A stretch of 64,000 nt of DNA, taken from NCBI RefSeq assembly GCF_013372265.1, contig NZ_CP054051.1, forward strand, positions 1,066,587-1,130,586, in the 5' to 3' direction. The notes below the pieces were generated by a model, which had not been told where the DNA came from, did no database searches, and saw only the letters and a program-made list of their open reading frames with translations. Below, one piece after another: positions 4,704-43,501 of this stretch. A program made the position numbers and the translations under genes. This stretch comes from Aliarcobacter cibarius. Lineage in GTDB: Bacteria; Campylobacterota; Campylobacteria; Campylobacterales; Arcobacteraceae. Position 1 is the stretch's first letter, and each line of letters begins with the position of its first letter.

Positions 4704-6626
4704 ATGAAAAAAATAGGTATAGGGGCGCTAATAATATGTTTTGTACTAGTTGTTAGTGGATTTATTTTAAATAGTAGTATTAATTCAAAAATTAATGCAA
4801 AGATTGATGAGTTAAATAAAAATGGATTTTATGTAACTTATGAAAAAGACAGTAAGTTTTTAACTACAAAAGGTAAAGGTAAAATTGAAATTTCTTACCC
4901 ATCAAAAGCTATAGAATATCTAATAAGCAAAAAAGATGATGGAGCTCTAAAAAAAGAGTTAGAGGAGTTTTTAAAAATCATACCAAGCGAAACTAAATAT
5001 GATTTAATGGAAGGATTAACTTTTGAGTATGATTTTAGTTTATGCAATATCAATTCTAAACTTGATTTAAATTTATATTTAGTTTCTTTATCAAATAGAT
5101 CTAAATATGATTTTTTAACAAAATATTCTTATGGTTATGCTCCACAAAATTTTGAAAAATTATTACAAAATAGAGAACTTAAAATTAATATAAACGAAGA
5201 AGGAAAGTTTAAAATTAATGATTTTAGTTTTGTTTCTACTAGTGGAATTCTAATTTTACGAGGTATAAATGGTGATAAAAGTAAATTAAATATCCCTTTT
5301 ATGAAATTTGAATTAGCAAATTATGATATGGGGTATTTAGATAATAGATTTTTAATTGAAAATACAACTTTTTCGTACAACGAAAATAAAAATAATAAAA
5401 GGGATTCAAAGTTAGATATAGGAAATTTCATTTATGAAGGGCTTAACGAGGAATTTAATATAAAAAATTTAAAACTTTCATCTAATTTTGCTGTTAATAA
5501 TAATGATTTAAAAGGTGAAACAAAAATATCTTTTGATGAATTTAACAGTAAATATTTTGAATATTCTTATACTTCAGAAGATAAAGATAAAACTAAAAAA
5601 GATTTTATAACTGTTAAAAATAGTTCTTTAGTTTTTGAATATGATAAATTACCTTATGAAAAATATAAAGAGTTTTCTAAATCTTTTGCTTTAGGTTATG
5701 AAAACTTTTTAAGTAAACAAAAAGATTTCCTAGAAGCTTTATCTAAATCAAATTTAATTTTAAAAATTTCAGCAGATTCAGAAAATTTAATTTATGAAAA
5801 CAACAATTGGTATAAAAAACTAAAAGTTAACTCCGATTTTGAATTAAGTAAAAACTTATCATCTATGAAATTTGATAATTTAAATGATGTTTTTAATGTT
5901 TTAAAAATTGATATAGAAGTTGATAGTTTATCTGCACAAAAAGCTTTAGAGAATAGCAATGAAGATATAAAATCTAAAGTGAAATTTATTGATTCAGCAA
6001 ATAAAGATTTTAAACTTTTAAAATTAGAACTAAAAGCAGATGGAATTTATATAAATGATGTTTTATCTATAACAAAAGATAAACTTAAGTTTCCAAAAAA
6101 CTCTTTTGATGATGCTTATGCACCTAATAGTTATTTAGATGATACAAATATATCTCACACTTATGAGATGATAGATAAAAATACTTTGAGAGTTAATTTT
6201 AAATATAAAACTTCTTTAGACTCTCTTTCAAGTGGTGGAATTGCAGTATCTTTCCCTCAATTGGTTGATGACAAATCTATAAAAGCAAAAACGAGTAAAA
6301 ATTTTGCTAAATTAGATGTATATAAAAAAGGAGATACTATGTTTAGTGGTTTATTAAATAAAAATGTAGTAGCCGAATATCTTATGATAGAAGGTTTTGA
6401 TGAAAACTGGACAGATACAACTATTGAAAAAGAGTTTTCTTTAGATATTGATGTGTCAAATATGAATGATTTTTTAGAGATAAATTTAAGAGGATATTCT
6501 ACGGCTGCTGATAAAGTAAATTATGAACTTTTACCTACACAAGATTATAGTTCTACACAAGATCAACAGTCATATTATATAAAAATTGCAGATATAGATT
6601 TACAAACATTAAAGAAAAATAAATAA
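4704..6626 (+). CDS. Large membrane-anchored YdgA/DUF945-like protein, paralogue 1 (640 aa)
   Basis: An N-terminal hydrophobic helix (residues 5-25) is followed by a long polar, Asn/Lys/Asp-rich, probably extracytoplasmic region. The segment right after the helix (INSKINAKIDELNKNGF, then GKGKIEISY) resembles the start of YdgA/DUF945 proteins, whose function is unknown. Repeated beta-type stretches fill the middle. The last 120 residues (SSGGIAVSFPQL through FLEINLRGYS) are the part best conserved with the next gene. It starts 9 bases after thiI and ends 12 bases before its paralogue. The DUF945 assignment is tentative; the pairing with the downstream copy is certain from the sequence. Confidence 0.75.
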   Translation: MKKIGIGALIICFVLVVSGFILNSSINSKINAKIDELNKNGFYVTYEKDSKFLTTKGKGKIEISYPSKAIEYLISKKDDGALKKELEEFLKIIPSETKYDLMEGLTFEYDFSLCNINSKLDLNLYLVSLSNRSKYDFLTKYSYGYAPQNFEKLLQNRELKININEEGKFKINDFSFVSTSGILILRGINGDKSKLNIPFMKFELANYDMGYLDNRFLIENTTFSYNENKNNKRDSKLDIGNFIYEGLNEEFNIKNLKLSSNFAVNNNDLKGETKISFDEFNSKYFEYSYTSEDKDKTKKDFITVKNSSLVFEYDKLPYEKYKEFSKSFALGYENFLSKQKDFLEALSKSNLILKISADSENLIYENNNWYKKLKVNSDFELSKNLSSMKFDNLNDVFNVLKIDIEVDSLSAQKALENSNEDIKSKVKFIDSANKDFKLLKLELKADGIYINDVLSITKDKLKFPKNSFDDAYAPNSYLDDTNISHTYEMIDKNTLRVNFKYKTSLDSLSSGGIAVSFPQLVDDKSIKAKTSKNFAKLDVYKKGDTMFSGLLNKNVVAEYLMIEGFDENWTDTTIEKEFSLDIDVSNMNDFLEINLRGYSTAADKVNYELLPTQDYSSTQDQQSYYIKIADIDLQTLKKNK

Positions 6627-6638
6627 AAGGAGAGATAG

Positions 6639-8543
6639 ATGAAAAAGATAGTTTTAGGATTAGCTGTTTTAGTTGCTATTGTTATTGCTGTATGTTTTAC
6701 TTTGAGAAGTACAGCAAATAGTAAAATAGAAGCAAAAATAGAAGAGTTAAAAAATAATGGTTTTAATGTTACATACAACAAAAAAGATGTTCTATTAAAA
6801 ATTGAAGCAGAAGGTAAAATAGAAGTAGCTTATGCACAAAAAGCTTTAGATTATGTAATTAGTCTTCAAGAACAAGGAGAACTTAAAAAAAGTCTAGAAA
6901 AAGCTATAAAGCTTTTTGATAAAAGAGATATTGATAGTGCTTTAGAAGGTCTTAGTGTAGATTATGATTTTAAAGTAAATATTTTAAATAAAAAACTAGA
7001 TTTAAATTTATATTTAACGAAGTTGTCAAATAGTTTAATGCAAGAGTTATTATCAAATCAAGATAATAAATCAACAAATACTTTAGAGAATATGTTGAAA
7101 AATAGAGAATTCCAAGTATCTATCGATGAAAATAAAAACTATAAGATAAAAGATATAAATTATGTTATGCCTGATGGAACTATGACGTTAAGAGGTATGA
7201 ATGGAGATATAAAAACTTTTAATATGGATTTATTAAAATTAACTAGTAAAGAAGATAATTTTACATTCTCTTTTGAAGGAATTAAAAGTTTTTATGAAGA
7301 AAAATTAAATCAAGCAGTTGATTCAAAACTTGATATTGCAAAAATAGAAATTATTGACAATAGTATAGATTTAAATTTAAAAAATACAAAAATTTCTTCT
7401 TTTTCTAAGATTGTAAATGATTTAATTGAAGGAAATTCAAAAATATCTTTTGATGAATTTAATTTAAAACAGCCAAATGAATTAGGAGCTGCTACTCAAA
7501 CAAGCTTAAAAAATAGTTTTATAGAATTAAGTTTTAATAAAGTGCCATTTAAAAAATATGAAGAGTTTATGGATGCTTATAATTCTTTAGAACAAGATTC
7601 AGATAAATTAGCTACAAAATCTAAAGAGTTTTTAGATGCACTTTCAAAAGCTGGTATAGAAATATTTCTAAATGGTAACTCAAAAAATTTAAATTTACAA
7701 AATAAAGAGTGGTTTAAAGAGCTTGATTTTAAATCTAAATTTGCTTTAAGCAAAGATTTATCATCTATGAAATTTGAAGGTATTTATGATATCTTTGAAA
7801 CAATTAACCTTGATTTAAAAATTGATAAAGAGTCTGTTGACAATGTAAATAAAGAGTTGAAATTAGATGAAAATAATAAAATAGTTTTACTTGATTCAGA
7901 AGATAAAAAATTTAAAGTTTTCAAAGTTGAATTAAAACCAGATGGTCTTTATGTTAATAATACTTTATCTGTAACTAAAGAGGGTTTGAAATTTCCAGAA
8001 AATGAGATAGATAACTCTTATATGTATGATGAGAGTGGAAATTATGAAACAGAAGATGATAATAGAGTATCTTATAATTATAAGTTGTTAGATAAAAATA
8101 CTTTAAGAGTAGAGTTTAAATATAAAACTGCATTACAAAAGATAAATTCAGGTGGAATTAGCGTATCTTTTCCTCAATTAAAAGATGGTTCGAAAATAAA
8201 AGCTAAGAGTTCGAAAAACTTTGCCAGTTTAGATTTTTATAAAGCAGGAGATGATTTATATAGTGGTATGTTAGGTAAAAATGTTAAAGCTGAATATTTA
8301 ATGGTAGAAGGTTTTGATGAAAACTGGAAAGATGTAAATAGTGAAAAAACATTTACTTTAGATATAGATGTAACAGATTTTAATGATTTCTTAGAGATAA
8401 ATTTAAGAGGATACTCTTCAAATGTTGAAGGTGAATATGAATTAGTTCCAACTGAAAAATCTAGTCAAACACAAGACCAACAAAGTTATTTTGTAAAAAT
8501 AGCTGATATAGATTTACTTGAAGAAAAAGGTAAATTCAAATAA
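6639..8543 (+). CDS. Large membrane-anchored YdgA/DUF945-like protein, paralogue 2 (634 aa)
   Basis: This is a tandem duplicate of the preceding gene with the same architecture: a hydrophobic anchor (residues 4-22), the KIEAKIEELKNNGF segment, repeated beta-like stretches, and a C-terminal block (NSGGISVSFPQLKDG through FLEINLRGYSS) that matches its neighbour almost residue by residue. The middle parts have diverged much more, including insertions. A strong AAAGGAG ribosome site precedes the ATG. The stop codon overlaps the first bases of a 28-bp palindrome that probably terminates the transcript. The family role is unknown; an envelope location is inferred from the anchor. Confidence 0.75.
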   Translation: MKKIVLGLAVLVAIVIAVCFTLRSTANSKIEAKIEELKNNGFNVTYNKKDVLLKIEAEGKIEVAYAQKALDYVISLQEQGELKKSLEKAIKLFDKRDIDSALEGLSVDYDFKVNILNKKLDLNLYLTKLSNSLMQELLSNQDNKSTNTLENMLKNREFQVSIDENKNYKIKDINYVMPDGTMTLRGMNGDIKTFNMDLLKLTSKEDNFTFSFEGIKSFYEEKLNQAVDSKLDIAKIEIIDNSIDLNLKNTKISSFSKIVNDLIEGNSKISFDEFNLKQPNELGAATQTSLKNSFIELSFNKVPFKKYEEFMDAYNSLEQDSDKLATKSKEFLDALSKAGIEIFLNGNSKNLNLQNKEWFKELDFKSKFALSKDLSSMKFEGIYDIFETINLDLKIDKESVDNVNKELKLDENNKIVLLDSEDKKFKVFKVELKPDGLYVNNTLSVTKEGLKFPENEIDNSYMYDESGNYETEDDNRVSYNYKLLDKNTLRVEFKYKTALQKINSGGISVSFPQLKDGSKIKAKSSKNFASLDFYKAGDDLYSGMLGKNVKAEYLMVEGFDENWKDVNSEKTFTLDIDVTDFNDFLEINLRGYSSNVEGEYELVPTEKSSQTQDQQSYFVKIADIDLLEEKGKFK

Positions 8544-38038: not shown

Positions 38039-38749
38039 ATGGGTAGAGCTTTTGAATATAGAAAAGCAGCAAAAATGAAAAGATGGGGAAATATGTCAAG
38101 AGTATTTCCAAAATTGGCAAGAGCTATTGAGGTAGCAGCAAAAACTGGTGTTCCTGATCCTGAAATGAATTCAGCTTTAAGAACAGCTATTTTAAATGCA
38201 AAAGCTGAAAATATGCCAAAAGCAAATATTGATGCTGCAATAAAAAGAGCAACAGGTAAAGATGCAGCAAACTTTGCTGAAGTGAATTTTGAAGGAAAAG
38301 GTCCTCATGGTGTTTTGGTTTTCGTAGAAACAGCTACTGATAACAATACAAGAACAGTTGCAAATATTAAAATGTATTTTAATAAAACAGGTGGACAAGT
38401 TGTACCTACAGGTTCTTTAGAATTCTTTTTTGATAGAAAAGCTATTTTTGAATTCAATAAACCAAGTAATTATGAACTTGAAGATTTAGAAATGGAATTA
38501 ATAGATGCTGGTTTAGAAGAACTTGAAGAAGAAGATGGTGTTATTTTAGCTTATGCAAACTATACAGATTTTGGTAATATGAACAATAAATTTGAAGAAT
38601 TAGGAATTCAACTTACAAAAGCTGAGTTAAAAAGAATTCCAAATAATCCTCAAGAATTTACAGAAGCTCAACAAGAAGAAATAGGAAAGTTAATAGAAAA
38701 ACTTGAAGATGATGATGATGTTCAAGCAGTTTATACAAATATAGCTTAG
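38039..38749 (+). CDS. YebC/PmpR family protein
   Basis: A 236-residue protein. The start is ATG at 38039 with GGAG seven bases upstream, giving the conserved GRAFEYRKAAKMKRWGNMSR beginning; the ATG 15 codons upstream would add an unconserved tail. Three YebC domains are apparent: N-terminal helices (to about 80), then the beta region NFEGKGPHGVLVFVETATDNNTRTVANIK, and a C-terminal part ending DDDDVQAVYTNIA. Members act as DNA-binding regulators or, as shown more recently, as factors that relieve ribosome stalling. It lies 30 bases ahead of the coiled-coil/OmpA/GTPase module and might be cotranscribed. Confidence 0.93.
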   Translation: MGRAFEYRKAAKMKRWGNMSRVFPKLARAIEVAAKTGVPDPEMNSALRTAILNAKAENMPKANIDAAIKRATGKDAANFAEVNFEGKGPHGVLVFVETATDNNTRTVANIKMYFNKTGGQVVPTGSLEFFFDRKAIFEFNKPSNYELEDLEMELIDAGLEELEEEDGVILAYANYTDFGNMNNKFEELGIQLTKAELKRIPNNPQEFTEAQQEEIGKLIEKLEDDDDVQAVYTNIA

Positions 38750-38779
38750 TTAGTATTTAGTAATATTTTAGGAGGGCAT

Positions 38780-39352
38780 ATGCAAGAGAATAAGAAATTA
38801 TCAAGTGAAACAAGTGAATTAGGTAATGTTGATCAAATCAGGGAAATTTTATTTGGTTCTCAATCAAGAGAACTAAATAAAAGATTTGAAAAACTTGAAA
38901 TTGATATTAAAAGATCTTTTGATGATTTAAAGTCAAAAATTGAGTTTAGTCAAAAAGAGTTTAATCAAAAACTTGAAAATGAAGTTGAACTTATATCTAA
39001 AAGAATTAAGAATCTAACTACTGTTCAGCAAGATGAATTTGCTGATATAAAAGATAATAATTTAAAACAAGAAAAGAGATTTCAGCATAGTATTGATTTA
39101 CTAAATGATGAAATTGGTGTAAAAATTGAGCAATTAACAAAAGATCAAAACGATAGTAAAAAATCTTTAAGTGAAGAGCTAAATTTCTTAAAATTAGAGG
39201 TTTTTGAGTTTATTGAAGATAAATTAGCTCAAATGAACAATGTAAAACTTTCAAGAGATGATGCAGCAGAAATTATGATGGAAGCAGCTCTGAAAATTAA
39301 AGGGAATAATATTCAAAACCAGTTAAATCTAATCGAACAACCACAAGAGTAG
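38780..39352 (+). CDS. Coiled-coil protein of the OmpA-GTPase module (190 aa)
   Basis: A soluble, strongly helical protein. After a short head comes VDQIREILFGSQSRELNKRFEKLE (residues 17-40), a conserved head motif I recall from uncharacterised coiled-coil proteins encoded next to OmpA-type proteins and small GTPases. Heptad-patterned helices then run to about residue 150, and the tail LSRDDAAEIMMEAALKIKG (about 158-176) is a compact helical end. It probably forms long oligomers. It has a GGAGG ribosome site and is followed after 9 bases by the OmpA/BON membrane protein. It could be a scaffold between the GTPase and the membrane protein; this is inference from order. Confidence 0.75.
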   Translation: MQENKKLSSETSELGNVDQIREILFGSQSRELNKRFEKLEIDIKRSFDDLKSKIEFSQKEFNQKLENEVELISKRIKNLTTVQQDEFADIKDNNLKQEKRFQHSIDLLNDEIGVKIEQLTKDQNDSKKSLSEELNFLKLEVFEFIEDKLAQMNNVKLSRDDAAEIMMEAALKIKGNNIQNQLNLIEQPQE

Positions 39353-39361
39353 TTTTAAAAA

Positions 39362-40987
39362 ATGAATGAACTACAAAAATTGAAAGAGCTCTTATTAAAA
39401 AATGAGCTTGAAGATTTTGATGAATTAAAAAGCAATTTTAATAAGTTGGAATCGGAATTTAATAGTAGTGAACATATAAAAAATATTATATCACCAGTTG
39501 TTACAACGGCAATAAAAGATAATATTAAATCATCAAGAGATGATGTTGTTGATAGCTTATATCCTATTATTGGAAATATGATTACGAAATATGTCTCAAG
39601 AACATTTGAGGATATGATTAATTCTATTAATAATAAAATCAGAAATAAATTGTCTTTTAAAGTGATAAGTAGAAAAATTAGAGCAAAAGTACAAGGTATA
39701 AGTGAAACAGAACTTTTAATTAAAGAAAGTACAAAAGCTTATATAAAAACAATTTTTTTAATTGAAAAAAATAGTGGTATTGTATTGACTACTTTACAAA
39801 ATGAGAATAGTAAAATTAATGAACCAGAAATGGTTGCATCTATGCTTACGGCAATAAGAAGCTTTGTAAATGATTGGGTAGATAAAAATGAAGAAAATAA
39901 AGAACTAAATATTATTGACTATGGTGGAAGTAAAATAGTTATAGAAAGTAGTACTAGTTGTTATTTGGCTGCTATTATTGATGGAGTTGTTTCAAACGAT
40001 ACTTACAGAAAAATTGAAGATATATTATCTTTGATTGTTTCGCAATATGGAAGTAAAATAAGAGATTTTAATGGGGATCTTGAAAGTTTACCTATTGATG
40101 AATTTAACAATATGCTACTACCTCTATTAAGCCATAAAGAATTCATAGAAAAAAATGAAAAAATCCATCCTATAATATATATTTTTCCTGTAGTTTTATT
40201 ATTAGTTATTTCATATTTTTCTTATAGTTATATTATTGATAGAAATTTAGAAAAAAAAGCCAATGAAATTCTTTTTAAAAATTCATCTTTAACTATTTAT
40301 AGGTTAGAAGTTACTGTTGAAAATAAAAATATTTTTGTAAATGGAGTTGTTCCAAATGCAATTTATAAAGATATGGCATTTAATGATTTAAAAGAATTAG
40401 AAGAGGTAAAAAGTATAAAAAATAATGTTCAAGTTGTAAATTTAAATACACCAAAAGACATTTATGACAAAATAACTTATTTAAGAATGGCACTAAACCA
40501 AAAAGATGGTAATAAAATAGAGTATAATTATGATTATCCAAATTTAAAAATTTTTGGATCAGTTATTAGTAGGGCAGAAAGAAAATATGTTGAAAATCAA
40601 TTTTCTTTAGTTGAAGGACTTGAAAAAATCAATTTTGATATAAAAATTGTACCTCCAAATATAGATGAATCTATACATTTTGATCAAAATTCAGCTGAGA
40701 TTTTGACAAATCAGGAATATAAGCTTATAAATATTATAAATTTACTTCATAAATTAGATGATGATTTAGTTTTAGAAATTTATGCTTTTAGAGATTTTAC
40801 AGGAACTCAAGAAAGAAATGAAACTTTGGTTCATGAAAGAGCAAAAGCTGTAATGAAATATTTGAAATTAAAAGGAAACGTTACTCAAAAGTTAGTAGAT
40901 ATAGGAAGAAATGAAATTCCTAAAGATATAGATGAAAGTGAATATCCAGAACAGGGTCGAAAAGTAATATTTAAATGGAAAAAGTAG
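39362..40987 (+). CDS. Membrane protein: cytoplasmic roadblock/longin-like domain, TM helix, BON-like repeats, OmpA C-terminal domain
   Basis: A 541-residue transmembrane linker. Residues 45-110 are helical (SLYPIIGNMITKYV and onward). Residues 125-240 show alternating strands and helices (IFLIEKNSGIVLTTLQ, MVASMLTAIRSFV, IDYGGSKIVIESS, CYLAAIIDG, FNGDL) like the roadblock/longin platforms used by small GTPases. One membrane helix follows at 270-292. Two BON-like segments lie at about 310-360 and 370-430, and an OmpA-like peptidoglycan-binding domain at about 437-541 (FTGTQERNETLVHERAKAVMKYL, ending QGRKVIF). The N-terminus is thus cytoplasmic and the C-terminus periplasmic. It is directly upstream of the GTPase gene (6 bases). 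The roadblock call is pattern-based. Confidence 0.8.
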   Translation: MNELQKLKELLLKNELEDFDELKSNFNKLESEFNSSEHIKNIISPVVTTAIKDNIKSSRDDVVDSLYPIIGNMITKYVSRTFEDMINSINNKIRNKLSFKVISRKIRAKVQGISETELLIKESTKAYIKTIFLIEKNSGIVLTTLQNENSKINEPEMVASMLTAIRSFVNDWVDKNEENKELNIIDYGGSKIVIESSTSCYLAAIIDGVVSNDTYRKIEDILSLIVSQYGSKIRDFNGDLESLPIDEFNNMLLPLLSHKEFIEKNEKIHPIIYIFPVVLLLVISYFSYSYIIDRNLEKKANEILFKNSSLTIYRLEVTVENKNIFVNGVVPNAIYKDMAFNDLKELEEVKSIKNNVQVVNLNTPKDIYDKITYLRMALNQKDGNKIEYNYDYPNLKIFGSVISRAERKYVENQFSLVEGLEKINFDIKIVPPNIDESIHFDQNSAEILTNQEYKLINIINLLHKLDDDLVLEIYAFRDFTGTQERNETLVHERAKAVMKYLKLKGNVTQKLVDIGRNEIPKDIDESEYPEQGRKVIFKWKK

Positions 40988-40993
40988 GTTTTC

Positions 40994-41509
40994 ATGTTTA
41001 GTTATAAAATAGTATTAGTAGGTGATTTTGGTACTGGTAAAACAAGTCTTATTAGAAGATTTGTAAATAATAGTTTTAGTGAAGATTATAAAAGTAGTAT
41101 AGGGGTAACTATCTCTAAAAAAATATTAAAAACAGATATAGATAATAAAATATATGAAACAACAATTATGATTTGGGATATAGAGGGAAGAACAGAATTT
41201 AAACCTATATTTAGTCATCATCTAAATGGTTCAAAGGCATTTATTATTGTTGCTGATATAACAAGAATTGAAAGTATTAATTCAATAACTGAACATATAG
41301 AAGTATGTCAAAAAATAGCTGTAAATTCACCAATATTTATAGCTTTTAACAAAAGTGATATGGAGCACGATGATATAGATATTTATAAGTATAAAAATTT
41401 ATCTTCAAATATAATTGATATTTTTAAGACTTCTGCAAAAGATAATATCTCAGTTAATGAGATTTTTGAAGTTTTAAACTCTCAAGTAATAAAAAGTAGC
41501 TTACAATGA
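40994..41509 (+). CDS. Ras/Rab-like small GTPase (171 aa)
   Basis: A single-domain GTPase close to Rab/Ras in order: G1 GDFGTGKTS (10-18), G2 region KSSIGVTISKK (33-43), G3 WDIEGRTEF (61-69), G4 FNKSD (near 118) and G5 TSAKDN. The switch regions differ from the eukaryotic consensus: the G2 Thr is Ser35 and the catalytic Gln after DxxG is Arg66. No lipidation motif is seen at the C-terminus. Such bacterial Ras-like GTPases are rare and mostly unstudied apart from MglA in cell polarity. The gene overlaps the GGDEF gene by four bases and follows the OmpA-type protein by six. Confidence 0.88.
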   Translation: MFSYKIVLVGDFGTGKTSLIRRFVNNSFSEDYKSSIGVTISKKILKTDIDNKIYETTIMIWDIEGRTEFKPIFSHHLNGSKAFIIVADITRIESINSITEHIEVCQKIAVNSPIFIAFNKSDMEHDDIDIYKYKNLSSNIIDIFKTSAKDNISVNEIFEVLNSQVIKSSLQ

Positions 41510-42729
41510 TTGATAAAGATTTAGTTTTACCAATAGTTTGTAATAAATATAATATTTCTTATATTATCTTTAATAAAGATTTAAAAATTTTTGATTTTAC
41601 AATGAATATGAGTATGTTTGTAGAGAAAAATGTAGAAATTGTTAAAAATATGGATATTAGAGAAGTTTTTTATGAATTTGTAGGGGCAGAAGATTCTTTA
41701 AATGAAGTATATAATTTTAAACGAAATTATTTACATATTTCTATGATTTCAAGGAATGATATATTTTATGATGTAAATATTGAAATTTGTAATATTGAAA
41801 ATGAAAGATACTTTATTGCCATGTTTTCAAAACAGCTTCATAGTTCAATTAGTTATCTTCAAACTATACAAAAAATAAATCAAGATAATTTAAGAAAGCA
41901 TCTTTTAAAAGAAAAAGATGAAGATTATTACAATGCTATAAATAAGAAGTTAATAAGTTTTAGAATTGATAAATTTGGAATAATAAAAGAAGTTAACCAT
42001 GCTTGTACCAATTTTTTTGCTTTAGATGAATTAGATTTATTAGGAAAACATTTTTCAGATTTTTTTCATTCAAGGGAAAATAAATCTAATTTGAACAGTA
42101 TAAATAGTATTTTTAGAGCTAATAAATTTGACAATACTGAAGTTTTTTTTCATGCGGATGTTATTCCTTTAAGTAATGAAGATTCTTCTAGAATAATAAT
42201 TTGTCAAGACATTACATATCTTAAGAAAATTGAATCAGAGTTGGAATATGCAGTTAATCATGATACTCTAACAAATCTTCCTAATAGATTATATTTAATG
42301 AAAAAGATTGAGGAAAATATAAAAAAATCTAAAGAAAATGACTCTCTTTTTGCATTATGTTTTATTGATTTAAATAAGTTTAAAGATGTAAATGATAACT
42401 TTGGTCATCATGTAGGAGATATGCTTTTAAAGCATGTAGGAGATATTTTAACTAATGTTTTAAGAGAAAATGATACAGTTGCTAGATTAGGTGGAGATGA
42501 GTTTGTCATATTACTTGAAAACATTGAATCTATAGACTATTTAGAAAAAACTATCTCTAGAATTAAAAGTGTTTCAAGTAAGATGCCACTGCTTTATAGC
42601 TCGAGTATAATTATTGATTTTTCTTTTAGTTTAGGGATTAGTTTATATCCATATGATGGTGACAACGTTGAAAAACTTCTTGATAAAGCTGACAAAAATA
42701 TGTATTTATATAAACAAAAAAGTATTTAA
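41506..42729 (+). CDS. PAS-GGDEF diguanylate cyclase (407 aa)
   Basis: No membrane helix is visible. An N-terminal PAS-like domain (about 10-108) and a second PAS domain (about 145-238, ending IIICQDITYLKKIESELEYA) are sensory. The cyclase domain begins HDTLTNLPNRL (252-262) and holds the catalytic GGDEF at 329-333. An intact inhibitory I-site RxxD (320-323) lies five residues before it, so it should make c-di-GMP and be product-inhibited. It is the last gene of the coiled-coil/OmpA/GTPase module, starting inside the GTPase stop (ATGA). A role as output or effector of the GTPase is inferred. Confidence 0.9.
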   Translation: MIDKDLVLPIVCNKYNISYIIFNKDLKIFDFTMNMSMFVEKNVEIVKNMDIREVFYEFVGAEDSLNEVYNFKRNYLHISMISRNDIFYDVNIEICNIENERYFIAMFSKQLHSSISYLQTIQKINQDNLRKHLLKEKDEDYYNAINKKLISFRIDKFGIIKEVNHACTNFFALDELDLLGKHFSDFFHSRENKSNLNSINSIFRANKFDNTEVFFHADVIPLSNEDSSRIIICQDITYLKKIESELEYAVNHDTLTNLPNRLYLMKKIEENIKKSKENDSLFALCFIDLNKFKDVNDNFGHHVGDMLLKHVGDILTNVLRENDTVARLGGDEFVILLENIESIDYLEKTISRIKSVSSKMPLLYSSSIIIDFSFSLGISLYPYDGDNVEKLLDKADKNMYLYKQKSI

Positions 42730-42739
42730 TCCTTTTTGT

Positions 42740-43501
42740 TTATTTATCTTTATTGATTTTGTTTATAATTTTTTGAATATCACTAATTCTTGTATCTGAA
42801 CTAGGGTGTGTTGAAAAGAAATCACTTCTGTCCGATTTTCCTTCATTCATATTTTCCCAAAATTTAATAGCTTCACTTATATTATAACCTGCATTGTACA
42901 TTAGGTAAATTCCAATTTCATCTGCTTCACTTTCTTGTAATCTTCCATAAGGAAGCATAACACCTAAATTTGAACCTGCACCATATGCCATATTGAAAGC
43001 ATTTTGATATTGTGGGGCAGTTGCTCCAACAACTATGTTTCCAATCATTCCTACCCCTTGCTGAACCATATTCTGACTCATTCTTTCAGCGCCATGTCTT
43101 GCAAGTGCATGTGCAATTTCATGAGAAATTACAGTTGCTAATTGATCATCATTTTTTGCATATTTTAAAATTCCTGTGTAAACAACAACTTTTCCTCCAG
43201 GAAGACAAAAAGCATTTGCCTGATCATCTTCAACTAGATTAAACTCCCACTTAAAATCATTTTTTTGTGAAACTTGAGCAATTTTTTGACCAATTATTTT
43301 TATTCTTTGAGAATCTTTTGTATTATTTATAACTTTTGCTTCATTTAAAGCTTCTTTATAAGATTTCTCGCCTAGAGCCATCTCTTCTGAAGATGAAACA
43401 AATATCATTTGAGATCTGTTTGTATATGGAGATTTACTTGTACAACTAGTTAAAATAAAAATAGTAGATATTGATAAAATAATTTGTTTTGAGCTAATCA
43501 T
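42740..43501 (-). CDS. M48-family zinc metalloprotease lipoprotein (LoiP/YggG-like)
   Basis: A 253-residue lipoprotein with lipobox LTSC (Cys20). The zinc motif HEIAH is at 127-131 and the third ligand Glu in ESEADEIG (190-197). The pattern VYTGILKYAKNDDQLATVISHEIAHALARHG is typical for periplasmic M48 proteases such as LoiP/BepA, which take part in outer-membrane protein quality control. It lacks the TPR extension of BepA. It is convergent with the GGDEF gene and divergent from acnB, with a 296-base gap in between. Confidence 0.9.
   Translation of the reverse strand: MISSKQIILSISTIFILTSCTSKSPYTNRSQMIFVSSSEEMALGEKSYKEALNEAKVINNTKDSQRIKIIGQKIAQVSQKNDFKWEFNLVEDDQANAFCLPGGKVVVYTGILKYAKNDDQLATVISHEIAHALARHGAERMSQNMVQQGVGMIGNIVVGATAPQYQNAFNMAYGAGSNLGVMLPYGRLQESEADEIGIYLMYNAGYNISEAIKFWENMNEGKSDRSDFFSTHPSSDTRISDIQKIINKINKDK

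Follow-up and report, generated by a model that had tools for sequence, protein, structure and literature searches.

A predicted longin domain in the OmpA protein of a Rup-type small GTPase operon of Aliarcobacter cibarius

Rup systems and the four-gene operon

Among the small GTPases of prokaryotes, Rup proteins are the group most like Rab, Ras, Rho and Ran (Wuichet and Sogaard-Andersen 2014, PMC4316618). That survey describes Group 1 Rup systems as sets of four genes, one of which encodes a cytoplasmic domain called 'unknown', and the number of Rup genes coupled to MglB was zero (PMC4316618). Longin domains are usually treated as eukaryotic and archaeal (PMC10933270, PMC4917890). Here we describe an operon in a 64,000-nucleotide window of the Aliarcobacter cibarius genome (NZ_CP054051.1, positions 1,066,587 to 1,130,586), in which a predicted longin domain is encoded next to a Rab-like GTPase; positions are those of the window unless a relative is named.

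The operon (38749-42740) is flanked by yebC and an M48 peptidase gene, and its four genes are all on the + strand. Gene 1 (38780..39352), an ORF that comes first in every complete operon seen, encodes a cytoplasmic coiled-coil protein of 190 aa whose seed alignment has the conserved motif GN(V/M)DQIRE(I/L)(L/M)FGxQ. It is followed by gene 2 (39362..40987), which encodes an inner-membrane protein of 541 aa that, according to its ORF, Pfam matches and predicted structure, consists of a helical region, a longin domain, a transmembrane helix, a BON domain and an OmpA domain. Gene 3 (40994..41509) codes for a Ras/Rab-like small GTPase of 171 aa (Pfam Ras, E 1.2e-26), for which the nearest solved structures are Rab35 and Rab1. 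A preliminary description of this DNA had placed a GTPase next to the OmpA protein, which agrees with the Pfam match and the nearest structures of gene 3 and with its co-occurrence with the domain in the phylum sample given below. The alignment identifies the P-loop GDFGTGKT, the G3 motif WDIEGR, in which the catalytic glutamine is missing, and the G4 motif NKSD. In 21 aligned GTPases the residue following the G3 glycine is not glutamine, and one relative (L016) has glutamine there. Gene 4 (41506..42729) encodes the output enzyme with an N-terminal PAS-like region, a PAS domain and a GGDEF domain (Pfam GGDEF, E 1.6e-42; alignment). Its Gln122 lies in the segment QKINQDN, and a glutamine is aligned in most relatives with the same N-terminal region. 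Genes 1 and 2 are separated by 9 bases and genes 2 and 3 by 6 bases, and the last 4 bases of gene 3 are shared with the start of gene 4. When the operon was scanned for promoters and terminators, sites were no more numerous than in shuffled sequence. A reading of the operon as an anti-phage system was dropped, as only weak matches to ZorA and LeoA were obtained, which are accounted for by the coiled coil and the P-loop.

As in Group 1 Rup systems, a coiled-coil protein, a protein composed of a domain, a transmembrane helix and OmpA, a Rab-like GTPase lacking the G3 glutamine and an output enzyme are encoded together. The operon thus matches a Group 1 Rup system, a classification based on gene content and the G3 motif without glutamine. 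Group 1 output proteins have a conserved glutamine in their N-terminal region; Gln122 is a candidate counterpart. Whereas no roadblock or longin domain was recognized in the 2014 account of Group 1, a longin domain is recognized here. The taxa listed then were Bacteroidetes, Chloroflexi, Cyanobacteria and Gammaproteobacteria, to which Campylobacterota and Mesorhizobium are added by the present data. The type of system has hence already been published. The longin assignment appears to be new in the searchable literature, where we found no earlier one for a Rup system and outside which most subscription papers and preprints lie.

Architecture and predicted fold of the gene 2 protein

The hydropathy profile of the gene 2 protein contains one membrane segment, at residues 268-286 (40163..40219; Kyte-Doolittle mean 2.23 over 19 residues), about 265 residues precede it, and an N-terminal signal peptide is absent. 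One segment is found at the matching place in most of 19 homologues, with four just below the threshold. Both Pfam domains over the cut-off are located C-terminal of this helix: a BON domain at residues 293-359 (40238..40438; PF04972, E 4.7e-8) and an OmpA domain at residues 440-510 (40679..40891; PF00691, E 3.1e-7). In OmpA domains an aspartate and an arginine usually hold peptidoglycan, and Asp478 and Arg493 are aligned at the usual ligand positions. The domain is hence predicted, from its family, to be of the peptidoglycan-binding type. Since the BON and OmpA domains follow the sole transmembrane helix, the N-terminal 265 residues are most likely cytoplasmic, provided that the OmpA domain reaches the peptidoglycan. 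The cytoplasmic placement of the domain ahead of the only membrane helix, as proposed in the preliminary description, is therefore retained, and a periplasmic N-terminus, which would have contradicted it, is not borne out. The peptides quoted there for 39494-40081 were recovered at residues 131-141, 157-169, 185-195, 200-208 and 236-240. The limits given for the domain, residues 45-240, had to be redrawn: the compact domain spans residues ~124-262 (39731..40147), and residues 1-115 (39362..39706) form a separate, helical region that was delimited by alignments and modeled with poor confidence (pLDDT about 36-58).

This N-terminal region and those of four relatives (L014, L016, L046 and L039) seemingly contain repeats of ~23 residues centered on a proline, L(S/A/Y)P(I/L)(I/V)xxxI. 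The helical region of the relatives is ~47 residues longer, i.e. by about two such repeats. In the longin-OmpA protein of Mesorhizobium (L040, 5476-8541), a periplasmic segment beginning HWQ(A/Y)YVSRLE occurs about four times in tandem between the transmembrane helix and the OmpA domain.

An AlphaFold2 model of residues 1-265, computed with six homologues, reached a mean pLDDT of only 58.5, for which reason a second model was cropped to residues 116-265 (pLDDT 78.6, pTM 0.76). The elements of the cropped model (E10-20, E26-31, H40-60, E69-72, E75-81, E85-92, H97-119 and H130-141) follow the order β-β-α-β-β-β-α-α with a five-stranded sheet and a third, C-terminal helix, which is the order of a longin domain. 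A structural search with VIA-align returned longin-type folds for all of the best 50 entries, with Z scores of 10-13 over 114-142 aligned residues. The best match was Sec22b (Z 13.1, 127 residues, 2.9 A), and Ykt6 (Z 12.5, 127 residues, 2.7 A), VAMP7 (Z 12.4, 126 residues, 4.2 A), Fuzzy (Z 12.0), TRAPP (11.3), a Lokiarchaeal longin (10.9), SR-alpha (10.7) and Mon1-Ccz1 (10.6) were also found. Longins of SNAREs and sigma/zeta chains of adaptors are thus among the top matches. A Foldseek run on the cropped model likewise gave longin-type matches.

A longin domain lacks the N-terminal helix of a roadblock domain and has a C-terminal helix at the same place instead (PMC10933270). With the longer model, the best 50 matches were all longin, roadblock or adaptor-chain folds, and MglB aligned with it over 105 residues (Z 10.7, 2.3 A) within residues 126-233, leaving out the last helix; its absence from the best 50 rows listed for the cropped model carries no weight against a match. 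As the third C-terminal helix is aligned in the longin matches, the domain is modeled as a longin rather than a roadblock, and by the order of its elements the predicted fold is nearer to longin than to roadblock or MglB. The domain had been described beforehand, by pattern, as roadblock/longin-like, with structure prediction and a structural search suggested as a check. Both have now been carried out and gave a longin fold and no unrelated one; by the order of elements the longin half of that assignment is the better supported one, MglB matching only within the range given above.

Sequence comparison does not detect this relation. Neither the gene 2 protein nor its 21 homologues have a significant Pfam match to a longin or roadblock family, the nearest being a weak and non-significant match of one homologue to Fuz_longin_1 (E 0.06). 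Scattered weak Pfam matches, e.g. to DUF5623, were dismissed as chance. When PDB sequences were searched by hmmsearch with the profile of the family, no significant longin relation emerged, and hhalign of the family against five Campylobacterota roadblocks gave a probability of 1%. The longin assignment consequently rests on predicted structure, because sequence methods miss the relation. The failure of the profiles and an identity of ~10% in the structural matches would also be expected if the domain had some other PAS- or profilin-like arrangement and shared only a common layout with longins. We consider this very improbable, as no other fold class occurs among the best 50 entries, with the Z scores and alignment lengths given above, and the longer model yields a consistent list. 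A longin fold of the cytoplasmic domain is thus a well supported prediction.

No Robl_LC7 protein was found by Pfam in this genome, and roadblocks were detected in three control genomes and, within the phylum, in five genomes other than this one. An MglB-type roadblock is therefore not available as a partner. The five Campylobacterota genomes with a true roadblock gene (L093-L097) include several in which a second small roadblock-looking protein and a conserved gene for 170-250 aa are found close to it, and this is a separate cluster.

Another reading of the fold is that the longin domain acts as a GAP rather than as an exchange factor or scaffold, completing a GTPase without catalytic glutamine as MglB does for MglA. 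The missing G3 glutamine, the structural neighborhood to MglB and the eukaryotic longin GAP complexes cited in PMC10933270 would fit such a role. However, the invariant or nearly invariant columns of the longin domain are Gly, Met, Ala, Phe, Ile, Ser, Tyr, one Glu and one Asp, without an invariant Arg or Gln that could serve as a finger, and the conserved glutamine of the system sits in the output protein. Because such a finger is not conserved, GAP action appears improbable compared with a role of the longin domain in scaffolding or exchange.

Distribution and exchange of the output enzyme

A sample of 397 Campylobacterota genomes contains 17 with the longin domain; the same 17 have a Rup-type GTPase, and the two genes are adjacent in 17/17. 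Fisher's test on this co-occurrence gives 3e-30, which is overstated since the genomes are related; the 17 span four families. Three short, weak matches that look like an unrelated repeated ORF (G145, G155 and G176) were left out of the longin count. G044, with in-frame stops, and G303 and G326, with large frames on other contigs, were left out of the GTPase count as different or contaminating. The Rab-like matches of G044, a 230-contig assembly, lie on contigs C6, C37 and C171 and contain several in-frame stops; they possibly represent intron-bearing eukaryotic contamination.

Among 31 genomes from the genus, 11 contain both the longin-OmpA and the coiled-coil gene and the others neither; the GTPase occurs in these 11 and in G001. 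In the latter (L092), the GTPase (7166-7678) and PAS-GGDEF (5925-7169) genes are found at the same site between yebC and the M48 peptidase gene, without the coiled-coil and longin-OmpA genes. This arrangement is either a natural partial deletion or a minimal form, the two genes having been lost or never been present. In at least five further, related genomes (G004, G010, G018, G022 and G023) yebC and the peptidase gene are ~50-100 bases apart with nothing between them. The operon is gained or lost as a unit at one site.

Outside the genus, the order of coiled coil, longin-OmpA, GTPase and output is kept in other Campylobacterota as in Aliarcobacter, and on a Nostoc and a Mesorhizobium plasmid; the examples from outside Campylobacterota are few, namely four plasmid records. 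The output enzyme is a GGDEF protein here, an HD-GYP protein in a Sulfurimonas MAG, a hybrid histidine kinase in Nostoc and an adenylate cyclase in Mesorhizobium. Four genomes that belong to another family have, as the following gene, one for a GGDEF protein whose N-terminal part differs. Given this variation, the longin, coiled-coil and GTPase genes look like a fixed core and the enzyme like an exchangeable part.

The distribution also bears on the possibility that the longin domain is a dimerization or assembly module for the co-encoded coiled coil or another helix, with the GTPase touching other parts. Many longins, such as those of SNAREs and adaptor sigma/zeta chains, bind peptides or other subunits and not GTPases. 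Their presence among the best structural matches speaks for this possibility and against a platform for the GTPase. In favor of an assembly module, too, the coiled-coil gene has precisely the distribution of the longin gene, and both are missing from G001, where the GTPase stays. Still, the occurrence of the GTPase coincides with that of the longin domain fully in the phylum sample and nearly so in the genus, and longin and roadblock dimers commonly serve to bind GTPases (PMC10933270). We judge an assembly role in place of GTPase binding to be unlikely; the two roles are in any case compatible.

A putative cell-wall-anchored platform compared with known systems

Overall, we favor, with a probability of roughly 0.6, the reading of the gene 2 protein as a peptidoglycan-anchored platform, i.e. 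a scaffold or exchange factor, of a Group 1 Rup GTPase module, with binding of the GTPase as the part that we infer. Judged by their families, the periplasmic BON and OmpA domains would tether the protein to the cell wall. The longin domain just before the transmembrane helix could bind the co-encoded Rab-like GTPase as a scaffold or exchange factor, by analogy with longins that serve Rabs. In its GTP-bound form, the GTPase might then act on the N-terminal domain of the gene 4 protein and set its diguanylate cyclase activity. As the GTPase is devoid of the usual catalytic glutamine, shut-off would probably depend on a residue supplied in trans. A candidate is the conserved glutamine of the output protein, for which a trans-acting role was proposed by Wuichet and Sogaard-Andersen (PMC4316618). 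Since G001 retains the GTPase and the cyclase in the absence of the longin and coiled-coil genes, this pair may persist without the platform.

A more far-reaching version, which we put forward tentatively as a possibility, is that a Rab-like GTPase has its longin activator built into a cell-wall anchor, so that the state of the wall would gate nucleotide exchange and thereby second-messenger synthesis. If true, this would be a Rab-longin partnership in bacteria outside membrane traffic, which could predate eukaryotes or have moved between domains. The presence of a Rab-like GTPase and a predicted longin domain in one bacterial operon points to a possible route from cell-wall state to a G-protein switch. 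In addition, the longin fold would provide the missing candidate partner for Rup GTPases, for which the survey of 2014 had found no roadblock partner (PMC4316618).

A comparison with eukaryotic Rab activators is suggested by the predicted fold and its order of elements, which are shared with the longins of the TRAPP core, Mon1-Ccz1 and Fuzzy-Inturned, and by a partner gene that encodes a Rab-like GTPase. The longin domains of these complexes act as scaffold or exchange factor for Rabs, and TRAPP, Mon1-Ccz1 and Fuzzy are each available in the PDB with their Rab. Unlike these heterodimers, the domain described here is bacterial, fused to a transmembrane helix and a peptidoglycan-binding domain, and only ~10% identical. 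MglB and MglA likewise combine a small GTPase with an α/β platform of related fold that is encoded nearby, whereas the present platform has the longin order, lacks a Robl_LC7 match, is membrane-bound and accompanies a Rup GTPase instead of MglA. Finally, the conservons of actinobacteria (cvnA-D), which were compared with Rup systems by the authors of the 2014 survey (PMC4316618), are also four-gene operons for small-GTPase signaling with a membrane component. In contrast to the operon of A. cibarius, they employ an MglB-type roadblock protein, an MglA-type GTPase and a histidine kinase.
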